Origin: Sphaerisporangium corydalis
GTDB taxonomy: Bacteria > Actinomycetota > Actinomycetes > Streptosporangiales > Streptosporangiaceae
Assembly (NCBI RefSeq): GCF_025506355.1
Contig: NZ_JANZYP010000008.1
Span: forward strand, 62,001 to 126,000
Direction: 5' to 3'
Length of the DNA: 64,000 nucleotides
Shown piece by piece: positions 28,583 through 31,366 of the stretch. How positions within the stretch are numbered: the first letter of the stretch is position 1; each line of letters starts with the position of its first letter. Position numbers and translations under genes: made by a program. The notes beneath the pieces are model-generated. The model made no database searches. It was not told where the DNA came from and saw only the letters and a list, made by a program, of their open reading frames with translations.

Positions 28583-28864
28583 TCAGCCGAGGAGGCTGGG
28601 GGTCTCCTGCTGGGCGAAGGTGATCACTATGTACCTGCCGTTGGAGTAGCTGACCACTGGGCGTCCGAGCATGTCGCCCACGCGGCGGGCGACCGCCTGG
28701 AACATCTCCACCATCTCCGGCGTATCGGCGCTCACCCTGAACCGCCCGCTGGTGACGAGTTGCTGGGCCACGAGGGACGCGAAGTTCTCCTCCCCACGGG
28801 CCTTCTCCTCCCCACTGAGAGGGGTACGCCGAAGCGCGGGTCGCGTGTCAAGAGGGTGGTCCAT
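28583..28864 (-). CDS. Hypothetical 93-residue protein
   Basis: 93 residues from ATG 28864, chosen because AAGGAG lies 8 bases upstream. Not recognised. A basic start is followed by a helical middle (EENFASLVAQQLVTSGRF, TPEMVEMFQAVARRVGDML) and strands (RPVVSYSNGRYIVITF). It contains no Cys and no membrane segment, so it is probably cytosolic. It is divergent from the RiPP-like locus across a 347-base AT-richer gap. It could be a regulator, but no clear helix-turn-helix is visible. Confidence 0.65.
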   Translation of the reverse strand: MDHPLDTRPALRRTPLSGEEKARGEENFASLVAQQLVTSGRFRVSADTPEMVEMFQAVARRVGDMLGRPVVSYSNGRYIVITFAQQETPSLLG

Positions 28865-29211
28865 CACTGATCTCCTTATGTTCACCGGGCTTCCAGGATG
28901 TCATCCGGGCATCCCTCCTGGTCTGCTTTTGGGTAGTTGATGGCTACATGGGGGCTGCTGACAGAGGCGACCAGAATCTGATTAATGGGAGTAGCCGGGA
29001 AAGACTTCCGGATGGTTGTAGGTTGGTATTAGTTGGTGTGCTCTTATTCTAGTAGGCGAGGCGAGCGCGTAAGCATTTATGTCATGACAAGGCCGAATCT
29101 CGTCATATCCGGGGTTTTGAATTTGCCTCGCCAATTCATATCGGTCGCGTTACTATCGAGCTGCTGACCGGCAGGGAAAGAGGGATTCGCGGAACCGAAC
29201 GGGAGCTGCCA
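28865..29211. other. AT-richer intergenic region upstream of the peptide locus
   Basis: 347 bases with no coding frame I can support. The stretch around 28980-29160 is clearly richer in A/T than the rest of the window. It probably holds divergent promoters for the 93-residue gene and the peptide/methyltransferase operon; I could not fix a -35/-10 pair with confidence. Confidence 0.55.
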
Positions 29212-29346
29212 ATGGGCAAGGATGACGGTAAGGGTGGCGGGGGACATGAGGGTGATCCGAAGAGGGACAAGCCGTTCGTGCCGAAACCCCCGCGGAAGCA
29301 GGACGGGGACGGCCAGGTGACGGGCGGCGGGAAACGCGGCAAGTGA
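29212..29346 (+). CDS. Candidate imiditide-type RiPP precursor peptide
   Basis: 44 residues, ATG 29212 with GGGAG 7-8 bases upstream. Composition is extreme: Gly, Lys, Asp and Pro make up most of it, with 11 basic and 7 acidic residues and no Cys, Ser, Leu, Ile, Trp or Tyr. It contains Asp-Gly steps at residues 5-6, 31-32 and 33-34 (QDGDGQ), the classic context for aspartimide. The TGA stop overlaps the GTG of the next gene (GTGA), so it is translationally coupled to a protein-isoaspartate methyltransferase homologue. By family knowledge (NmaA of Nonomuraea maritima) such a charged linear peptide is methylated on one Asp, which then cyclises to an aspartimide. Precursor role is inference. Confidence 0.72.
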   Translation: MGKDDGKGGGGHEGDPKRDKPFVPKPPRKQDGDGQVTGGGKRGK

Positions 29347-30449
29347 ACCCGTGGCGGCGTGTCGAGGCCCTAGCGGACGAGCTGGCCGGCAATGGTGAAC
29401 TGACCGACAAGGTGTGGCGCGAGGCGCTGCACGCTGTGCCGCGTCATCTTTTCGTCCCGGCTGTGGCCTGGGTCAATCCCTACGAGGCTCCGGGTTACCG
29501 GATCGATCGGGAGCGGGATCCGGACTCCTGGTGGACCGCCGCCTACGCCGATCTTTCGATCATCACACAGCTCGACGACGGAATGACCGAACTCGGAGGG
29601 GGGAGTAGCGGGGACTACACGTCCTCGCTGTCCGCGCCAGGAGCGGTCGTGGAATTCCTCGAACTCCTGGACCCCTACGACGGCGACCGGGTACTGGAAA
29701 TCGGTACGGGCACGGGATGGACCGCCGGATTGCTGTCTCACCGGGTCGGGGACACGAACGTGACCAGCGTCGAGATAGACCAAGCCGTTCTCGCGGTGGC
29801 GGCGACGAATCTGAAGGAAGCCGGTTACGCTCCCCGGCTCGTCCACGGGGACGGAGAGAAAGGCCGCCCCGAGGCGGCGCCCTTCGACCGGGTACATGTC
29901 ACGTGCGGTGTGGTCACGGTCCCTTACGCGTGGGTGGAGCAAACCCGCCCTGGCGGGACGATCGCGTTTCCGTGGATGCCCGAATTCGAGCCGGGTCACA
30001 AGGTCTCGCTCACCGTGGGGCGCGATGGCACCGCTACCGGAAGATTCTCGGGAGGCGCCCGATACATGATGCTCAGAGGCCAGCGGACTCCCGATTCGCC
30101 GACGTACGAAGGCGCTTATCGGAAACGCGAGGCGACGCTCGACCCGCGCCGGATCTTCCGGTCCGGCTACGGCTTCGACGTGGCCATGGCCGGATGCCTT
30201 CCAGACGTCTCGGTGGCCACGAACGACGGCGGACCGTTCGAAGTCTGGCTTTGGGCCGGGGGATCCGGCGCTCATCTGAGCGGCTCGGACGTCCGGCAGT
30301 TCGGGGATCGGAGCCTCTGGGACGAGGTGGAGGGCGTGTTCTTCCGATGGGTCGGGTGGGGACACCCCGAACGCAGCAGATTCGGAATGACCGTCACCGC
30401 CGAGGGCCAACATATCTGGCTCGACCTTCCGGACAACCCGATCGCCTAG
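29343..30449 (+). CDS. Protein-L-isoaspartate O-methyltransferase homologue, RiPP-tailoring type (NmaM-like)
   Basis: 368 residues, far longer than housekeeping PIMT (about 210-230). PIMT hallmarks: VPRHLFVPA (about 32-40), TSSLSAPGAV (about 93-102) and the SAM motif VLEIGTGTGWTAGLLS (about 117-132), then TSVEIDQAVLAVA. A C-terminal extension of about 130 residues ends HIWLDLPDNPIA; RiPP-associated PIMTs carry such an extension with a conserved tail. Starts at GTG overlapping the stop of the 44-residue peptide. Expected to methylate an Asp side chain of that peptide with SAM, after which an aspartimide forms spontaneously. No ATP-grasp, lanthipeptide or lasso gene is nearby, which favours the imiditide class. 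Confidence 0.85.
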   Translation: MNPWRRVEALADELAGNGELTDKVWREALHAVPRHLFVPAVAWVNPYEAPGYRIDRERDPDSWWTAAYADLSIITQLDDGMTELGGGSSGDYTSSLSAPGAVVEFLELLDPYDGDRVLEIGTGTGWTAGLLSHRVGDTNVTSVEIDQAVLAVAATNLKEAGYAPRLVHGDGEKGRPEAAPFDRVHVTCGVVTVPYAWVEQTRPGGTIAFPWMPEFEPGHKVSLTVGRDGTATGRFSGGARYMMLRGQRTPDSPTYEGAYRKREATLDPRRIFRSGYGFDVAMAGCLPDVSVATNDGGPFEVWLWAGGSGAHLSGSDVRQFGDRSLWDEVEGVFFRWVGWGHPERSRFGMTVTAEGQHIWLDLPDNPIA

Positions 30450-30526: not shown

Positions 30527-30904
30527 TCAGTCGGGTGGGGTGGGGGTGAGGCGGATGATCGCGGAGGTGGTCGACCAACGGGAGGTGAGTTCGGGGGAGT
30601 TGACGGCGTTGAGGCGGTCCTTGGCCAGGAGGGCTATGACCGGCGCCTCCGCCTCGGCTGATTGGTCGACCACCGTGACGGCGGCGGTGAAGGAGATCAG
30701 TTCGGCGCCGTTGTCCTTGCTGCGGAGCGTCACCCGCACGCTGGAGGCGTCGGCGAGGCCGGGCAGGGACTGCTCCTCGCCTCCGGTGACGAGGTAGATC
30801 GCACCGTCGTGCCAGACGTGCCAGGCCAGCCGGTCGCGCCCGGACAGCGAGACCCACAGGACGCTCGACTTCTTGGCACCCTCTTCGATCAGCGAAAGGC
30901 TCAC
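30527..30904 (-). CDS. Pyridoxamine-phosphate-oxidase-like (FMN split-barrel) small protein
   Basis: 125 residues from GTG 30904. The strand pattern SSVLWVSLSGRDRLAWHVW, AIYLVTGGEEQSLPGL, SVRVTLRSKDNGAELISFTA suggests the flavin-binding split barrel family, though no FMN-contact motif is certain. Cytosolic. It is convergent with the PIMT-like gene with 77 bases between, so it is probably not part of the RiPP operon. Function unknown. Confidence 0.65.
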   Translation of the reverse strand: MSLSLIEEGAKKSSVLWVSLSGRDRLAWHVWHDGAIYLVTGGEEQSLPGLADASSVRVTLRSKDNGAELISFTAAVTVVDQSAEAEAPVIALLAKDRLNAVNSPELTSRWSTTSAIIRLTPTPPD

Positions 30905-31366
30905 ACCGAGCAATCTACGACGCGTCCCCGCCGCAATCTACGGACGCGGTCACCGTCGCAGACTCCGGCGATGCCTTCGGAAGGACGGCCGACTCGATGG
31001 TCATCGAATTCGGACAGGCTTGTGCCCATGGATATCCAAGGCGCCGGGCCGGTGGAGCTGGGTTCTCCGGATGCCGGGCCGGTAGACGTGAGCGTTCCGG
31101 ATGCCGGGCCAGGAGACGTGAGCGTTCTTATAGGTATCGAGTCCGCCTGCGGCGGTCGCGGGCGGCGGTCTGGGCGGATCGATCGGTCGGGCGTGCGACT
31201 CTTCAGCCGGTCCCGGCCGCTCGCCCACCCGGCCCGCCGCCACCGACCGCCGTGCGGGGGTCGGTGGCACCCGAGGCCCCCCTCGGACCACTAGGCGCCG
31301 GCTGCCTTTCGTCGTCCACCGGCGAGCTGCGACTGGTGCGACGGAACATCAATCCGCTGGCACCCC
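30905..31366. other. Intergenic region with short tandem duplication
   Basis: 462 bases. Contains the 30-bp tandem pair at 31067-31126. A plus-strand frame from ATG 31028 would encode PDAGPVDVSV-type repeats followed by Arg/Pro-rich sequence, but it lacks a ribosome site and looks non-coding after 31160. Confidence 0.5.
31067..31126. repeat. 30-bp tandem duplication
   Basis: Units 31067-31096 and 31097-31126 differ at two positions (shared core GACGTGAGCGTT). A degenerate third unit precedes them from 31041. Confidence 0.75.

Follow-up and report, generated by a model that had tools for sequence, protein, structure and literature searches.

Does the short reading frame that overlaps a gene for a PIMT-like protein in Sphaerisporangium corydalis encode the precursor of an imiditide, and if so, which of its residues is modified? 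The imiditide class was described in 2023, and a sequence-only reading of the locus had proposed that the two genes form a new member of it. We followed up this proposal in the whole 64,000-nucleotide stretch of DNA analysed (the window; GC content 71%), which comes from a genome of 9.48 Mb in 162 contigs. With a probability of roughly 0.9, the two genes would make a type I pamtide (imiditide), one encoding its precursor peptide and the other a C-terminally extended PIMT homologue (peptide aspartyl methyltransferase, PAMT). The features referred to in the text are the following, in the numbering of the window.

29201..29205, + strand: GGGAG, probable ribosome-binding site for the peptide gene, with 6 bases between it and the ATG (also picked up as GGAG at spacing 6)
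29212..29346, + strand: precursor peptide, ATG start, 44 aa, MGKDDGKGGGGHEGDPKRDKPFVPKPPRKQDGDGQVTGGGKRGK, conserved in relatives
29308..29310, + strand: GAC codon of Asp33, proposed methylation and aspartimide site (Asp33-Gly34); the Asp is kept in the register D-x6-G-[KT]-[RH], and the chemistry is predicted
29323..29343, + strand: codons for residues 38-44, the basic tail GGGKRGK, which is proposed to serve in recognition
29343..29346, + strand: GTGA overlap, with the enzyme start codon inside the end of the peptide gene
29343..30449, + strand: PAMT gene, GTG start, 368 aa, matching Pfam PCMT and TIGR04188
29622..29642, + strand: SSLSAPG, PAMT residues 94-100; Ser94, Ser95 and Ser97 are invariant in 64 aligned PAMTs
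29697..29717, + strand: EIGTGTG, SAM-binding motif, PAMT residues 119-125
30348..30368, + strand: WVGWGHP, PAMT residues 336-342, corresponding to the WXXXGXP motif of PMC13001092 (excerpt)

Both reading frames are indeed present and share the four bases GTGA, through which the translation of peptide and PAMT would be coupled. The peptide has the 11 basic (8 Lys, 3 Arg) and 7 acidic (6 Asp, 1 Glu) residues counted in the sequence-only reading, together with 13 Gly and 5 Pro, and QDGDGQ occupies residues 30-35, containing Asp31 and Asp33. Its fraction of Gly, Pro, Asp and Lys (0.73) was the highest among 379 window ORFs of 30-60 aa (mean 0.24, SD 0.085; runner-up 0.56), so that by composition it is not a chance reading frame. 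Precursors of the class are about 45 aa long, rich in Gly/Pro/Asp(/Lys) and charged at their ends; the window peptide has 44 aa, 73% G/P/D/K, acidic residues near its start and the GGG[KT]R tail at its end. It thereby resembles NmaA from Nonomuraea maritima and SpaA from Streptomyces sparsogenes, linear Gly/Pro/Asp/Lys-rich precursors with a length of about 45 aa and a basic C-terminus, and the layout of two genes is that of NmaA-NmaM and SpaA-SpaM (PMC13001092 and PMC10787088, both in excerpt).

The absence of other RiPP enzymes, the further point on which the first interpretation had rested, held up as well: a Pfam scan of 27 window ORFs (pair included) turned up no ATP-grasp, lanthipeptide or lasso enzyme, which leaves a precursor and a PAMT without the primary enzyme of another RiPP class in these ORFs. 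The PAMT is also the sole modifying enzyme in the type II pamtides or cysimiditides (FcaA-FcaM, TceA, NalA); unlike these, with their two CXXCXGXG motifs, the window peptide has neither such a motif nor any Cys. With 1414 type I members already reported (PMC13001092, excerpt), the pair is one more member and no surprise; of the claim of a new member of a recent class, the membership stands and the novelty is small. The locus may already be contained in published pamtide data sets.

The peptide frame is conserved in relatives, and its changes fall mostly at third codon positions. The nearest precursors are those of Actinomadura terrae (MGKHEGDPKQDKPFEPKPPKKEDGDGQVPGGGKRGK) and A. hibisca, which differ from each other in one residue; 14 of their 36 codons differ, 13 of them silently (0, 1 and 13 changes at codon positions 1, 2 and 3). 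Between the window peptide and that of A. terrae we counted 19 silent and 6 non-silent changes over 36 aligned codons. Four other peptide pairs were less lopsided, with silent/non-silent counts of 5/5 (L010 vs L011), 4/2, 9/9 and 8/6. An upstream G/P/D/K-rich ORF with a Shine-Dalgarno-like site accompanied 47 of 68 PAMT rows above 200 bits (two of these rows, L016 and L041, are identical). In a larger, strand-corrected set of 122 PAMTs scoring 150 bits or more, an upstream peptide was present for 84, of which 8 were judged doubtful, and a recognisable adjacent peptide was missing from the other 38. The doubtful precursors (L113, L121, L123, L126, L160, L165, L167 and L076) were left out of the counts, as was L183 with its apparent frameshift, which nevertheless is a row in the Asn/Asp enzyme tree discussed below. 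In 60 of 76 pairs, the peptide gene ended close to the estimated start of the enzyme gene, in the range from 10 bases ahead of it to 4 bases past it. The 77 precursors counted (the window's included) contain 18.4% G, 14.1% P and 10.4% D at a median length of 42 aa; the published values are 17.3% G, 16.8% P, 10.2% D and about 45 aa (PMC10787088, excerpt).

We infer that the peptide is the substrate and that its tail has a role in recognition, and we predict the chemistry by homology to NmaA/NmaM and SpaA/SpaM. The PAMT would bind the linear Gly/Pro/Lys-rich 44-aa peptide, with its conserved basic tail GGGKRGK as part of the contact, and with SAM as methyl donor it would methylate Asp33 at the side-chain carboxylate. 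The backbone amide of Gly34 would displace methanol, closing the aspartimide (succinimide), which may later open with water to isoaspartate or aspartate and could then be remethylated. Of the 9 nearest rows that carry the Asp, 8 have a tail of the form GGG[KT]R[GER]K, the exception being L013. In a set of 47 pairs, the last 12 precursor residues were net positive in 44 and the whole precursor in only 35; all 47 enzymes in one PAMT set were net acidic. Changing the last five residues of SpaA to Ala abolished modification, and the loss of the last five residues of NmaA mattered little (PMC13001092, excerpt). Replacement of the acidic DEDGD loop lowered modification in NmaM, for which enzyme, and not class-wide, the role of the loop is demonstrated (PMC13001092, excerpt). 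The loop is present in the enzyme of L125, through which we made the comparison with NmaM, and aligns there with a shorter and barely acidic TNDGG in the window PAMT. Because the window PAMT thus differs from NmaM in lacking the one loop shown to matter there, recognition must rest elsewhere, and charge pairing may take place at another part of the enzyme.

Asp31 and Asp33 had both been named as possible sites. In the 13-row group of the enzyme tree to which the window PAMT belongs, the Asp33 position holds Asp in 10 rows (GDG, GDA or GDT) and Asn in 3. Asp31 was rejected, since just 3 of the 13 rows (the window, A. terrae and A. hibisca) have Asp there; Asp33 is favoured by its conserved register. 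Of the 77 precursors, 60 contain the register D-x5-7-G-x-[RH], compared with 6.3 on average and at most 15 when the sequences were shuffled 1000 times, and 26 contain its strict form D-x6-G-[KT]-[RH], which is the window's at Asp33 (shuffled 0.50, maximum 4). These figures are descriptive and no test, because the shuffling takes no account of kinship and the pattern came from the very sequences in which it was counted (S was admitted post hoc, and the position was later opened to any residue). The L127 precursor likewise carries an Asp, in SKDQQGGGRH. The precursor of L125, which from its fit to the published description of NmaA would be NmaA itself or a near relative, carries the Asp of an Asp-His pair in exactly the Asp33 register. 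The window peptide differs from NmaA in the residue after the target (n+1), which is Gly here and His in NmaA, and from both NmaA and SpaA in following the pattern GD[GAT]...GGG[KT]R of the Actinomadura group, NmaA/M and SpaA/M having been compared by their published descriptions.

These observations suggest that Asp33 is probably the modified residue. Considerably less probable is an imiditide pair modified at Asp19 (RDKP), in which the C-terminal Asp/Asn region would be only a recognition segment. The Asp19 position (DKP or DVP) does hold Asp in 13 of 13 rows of the clade, including the 3 without Asp33, compared with 10 of 13 for Asp33. However, D-x-P within residues 7-26 is missing from 24 of the 77 precursors by a crude positional test that wrongly fails L014 and L048, and in L032 and L066 the only Asp sits in the Asp33 register (in L066 with Pro next to it). 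Furthermore, Asp19 is followed by Lys or Val, and Asp-Lys and Asp-Val are known to form aspartimides less readily than Asp-Gly. Finally, in NmaA the first 20 residues are dispensable and the last 10 are not (PMC13001092, excerpt); that NmaA is still modified without its first 20 residues places the site further on, and these findings agree with a site in the C-terminal half. With Asp33 as the probable target, its distance to G-[KT]-[RH] would give a site-prediction rule for untested members of the class.

The precursor of L066 (G043:C102), MGRHEGQPKPGQPYEPPPTNPDPQSPGGGTREKPQPP, is a case of its own. Its sole Asp is followed by Pro, and because Pro has no backbone NH, this Asp cannot close an aspartimide; either the product would stop at the methyl ester, or the locus would do something else.

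The enzyme retains the SAM site of PIMTs (EIGTGTG) and carries a C-terminal extension that ends in HIWLDLPDNPIA, just as first described. The extension reaches about 136-157 residues past the PIMT part, where more than 100 aa are characteristic of the class. Like NmaM and SpaM, the window PAMT combines such an extension with the WXXXGXP motif, which a 2026 review gives as the motif of RiPP-associated PIMTs (PMC13001092, excerpt). In the SSLSAPG segment, Ser94, Ser95 and Ser97 were also invariant in a 23-row PAMT alignment. The SAM-binding domain is shared with housekeeping PIMTs and with the Thermotoga maritima PIMT (PDB 1DL5), the best solved relative by profile. The match of a 23-PAMT profile to 1DL5 stops at profile position 232 of 365, and unlike the SAM domain, the window-type C-terminal part is unmatched past this point; kinship of the C-terminal domain therefore has no sequence support. 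A structure prediction from four sequences (window, L039, L040 and L041) reached a pLDDT of 33.8, so that this domain was judged by its sequence.

The best NCBIfam model by far for the window PAMT was TIGR04188 (300 bits, residues 10-357), which all 23 PAMTs of one alignment matched at E <= 1e-10. This is the family of the graspetide-associated PAMTs, including those of fuscimiditide and amycolimiditide, and the match is nearly full length. As the model is named for ATP-grasp peptide systems, the window PAMT might be a tailoring enzyme detached from its cluster (graspetide, lanthipeptide or lasso) and act on a peptide first cyclised by an enzyme encoded elsewhere. We consider this very unlikely: unlike the graspetide-associated enzymes, the window PAMT scores under the cut-off (300 vs 380 bits), the 27 window ORFs scanned include no ATP-grasp, lanthipeptide or lasso enzyme, the peptide is conserved in relatives while the neighbourhood is not, and it has no Cys. 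Even less credible, and largely refuted by model scores, tree and peptide conservation, is a housekeeping or general repair PIMT beside a peptide ORF that is incidental or has another role: the Pfam PCMT domain (97 bits), the PIMT-like SAM domain, the profile relative 1DL5 and the fact that no gene of the source genome reaches the TIGR00080 cut-off would fit it, but the PAMT scored 81 bits with TIGR00080 (cut-off 159) and 98 with NF001453 (cut-off 188), five other places in the same genome outscored it on TIGR00080 (best 141 bits), it is placed apart from PIMT homologues of the same genome, and the coupled peptide is conserved. The type I pamtide assignment, which had been made without database searches, thus gained support from the fit to TIGR04188, the WXXXGXP motif, the tree and the conserved peptide.

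In a tree of 72 enzyme rows, the window PAMT fell inside the 13-row group with a support of 94/76, and a precursor lay upstream in 13 of 13; in the next larger group, it was present in 26 of 31. On a branch of length 2.23 (support 100/100), apart from the PAMTs, stood three PIMT homologues encoded in the window's genome, so the grouping with housekeeping PIMTs that would have spoken against the proposal was not seen with respect to these three; the PIMTs compared here were homologues from the window's genome, with no external surE-linked housekeeping PIMT among the rows. The branch of a fourth homologue of this genome, L086, is very long (3.64), and its placement is unsure. A clade of twelve rows in this tree comprises PAMTs without a recognisable adjacent precursor.

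PAMT matches at E <= 1e-40 were present in 150 of 250 genomes of the window's family. A class-wide draw gave matches at E <= 1e-60 in 31 of 394 genomes, 21 of the 31 from the window's family; PAMTs this close belong mainly to the window's own family. A plasmid search with the window PAMT returned 78 records, all below 60% identity. The enzymes and precursors of A. terrae, A. hibisca and Thermomonospora catenispora are identical, in the compared parts, to those of members of the window's family, which places the window's genome among this group of actinomycetes.

Further arrangements were observed on the way. The source genome contains a second type I pamtide pair (G000:C130:90651-91745; L083, L114), whose precursor MGKHDGDKPSDKPVEKPKPNSDGARPDRPGQHEKPGKK has a TTG start; its enzyme is about 60% identical to the window PAMT. 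Also in this genome, G000:C119:74996-76084 (L085, L110) encodes a PAMT of the same family and has no adjacent ORF recognisable as a precursor. At G066:C37:238833-241065 (L022, L054), two PAMT genes stand in tandem, with a recognisable precursor only before the first. Two pairs look decayed, namely L020 (G020:C28), with two in-frame stops in the match, and L183 (G677:C34), with the apparently frameshifted precursor. A DUF397-like gene was considered as the partner of peptide-less PAMTs and dropped after one case in 21 loci.

Pfam gave no family for the two directly flanking ORFs of the window pair (28583-28885 and 30527-30913, both on the minus strand). Further neighbours in the window are of ordinary kinds and include an EamA transporter, an MgtE-like protein, DUF1003, an Mrp/NUBPL-type ATPase, a sigma factor with a zinc-finger partner and a beta-lactamase-family protein, among others. 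Across nine near-relative loci (window, L039, L040, L041 and L043-L047), for which genes were called crudely (at least 70 aa, GC3 > 0.75), the PAMT was the sole gene common to all, and no exporter, protease or immunity gene recurred beside the pair. A tenth locus, L050, was counted neither way because the crude calls missed the PAMT itself. Flanks were common to L043 and L044, which are a close pair, and a few weak matches (30-35% identity) joined unrelated places. L046 has a second, distant PAMT relative (L046:1199-2401, minus strand; 33-35% identical) about 5 kb from the G139 pamtide pair. The GC3 of the window PAMT gene is 0.78, compared with 0.94-0.97 in called genes at 25.0-28.4 kb, and some crude calls downstream of the pair have a GC3 of 0.77-0.90, similar to the PAMT gene. 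Horizontal arrival of the pair is therefore possible, as the GC3 lies below that of the upstream genes, yet is like that of some downstream calls.

The Asn found in place of the target Asp deserves separate treatment. Asn-Gly occupies the target position in 7 of the 77 precursors (L014, L015, L048, L099, L100, L024 and L185), on three branches of the enzyme tree; as far as could be assigned by eye, no residue other than Asp or Asn occurs there in the set. Five of these loci (L014, L015, L048, L099 and L100, from four genomes) form the sister clade of the window's subgroup and share [KW]NGKGG[GK]R[HS], with AAC as the Asn codon in all five. No further member of this clade was found at E <= 1e-135 when the L015 enzyme was searched against 341 genomes of the family with five candidates scored per genome. 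On the second branch is L024 from the window's own genus, with SQNGSSPKPPGQH where its relative encoded on C130, a contig of the window's genome, has NSDGARPDRPGQH; on the third is L185, with SKNGDRPDKGGKH versus SPDGDRPDKGGAH in L023. In L185, a second Asp two residues on could be the target instead. The apparently frameshifted L183 would be an eighth Asn case and was not counted. The enzyme tree, in which L183 is also a row, needs three changes between Asp and Asn, counted without an assigned direction and each required by branches with good support.

Among dipeptides, Asn-Gly is the most prone to deamidation, which runs via a succinimide, and it can reach the same succinimide as the imiditides without the enzyme. 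It is conceivable, and we propose it tentatively at somewhat less than even odds, that these loci make "asparagine imiditides", in which Asn-Gly would deamidate spontaneously to the succinimide and the linked PAMT would re-methylate the resulting isoAsp, that is, work in the old PIMT direction. A functional Asn-Gly is favoured by its retention in 5 of 5 sister-clade loci, whose enzymes have drifted apart (69-89% identity to that of L015) and whose frames are free of stops, and by the occurrence of the same residue pair on each of the three branches. Several observations argue against it. GAC to AAC is one common transition, and Gly is the commonest residue after the target anyway (20 of 60). 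The spacing to the tail is shorter in the Asn clade (the Asp-bearing L127 has the same spacing), and the equivalent of Asp19 is intact in this clade. Moreover, the motif WXXXGXP reads WTEWQRP, without its Gly, in the L015 enzyme, and silent and non-silent changes in the clade peptides show no strong skew (6/8, 9/6, 6/4, 9/9 and 10/12). No mention of Asn at an imiditide target was found in the literature searched, which covered parts of article texts exclusive of supplements and figure sequences; the nearest published case in it is the graspetide SsfA, whose Asn83 formed isoAsp spontaneously (PMC10787088, excerpt).

To summarize, the window pair adds a clean, testable example of an imiditide from the Actinomadura group, with Asp33 as the predicted site. 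The relatives with Asn-Gly are the part most worth an experiment. If they are indeed asparagine imiditides, selection in the class would keep the succinimide or isoAsp state itself, and not the methylation of Asp; these relatives would make it testable, class-wide, whether the modification exists for the sake of the aspartimide/isoAsp state.
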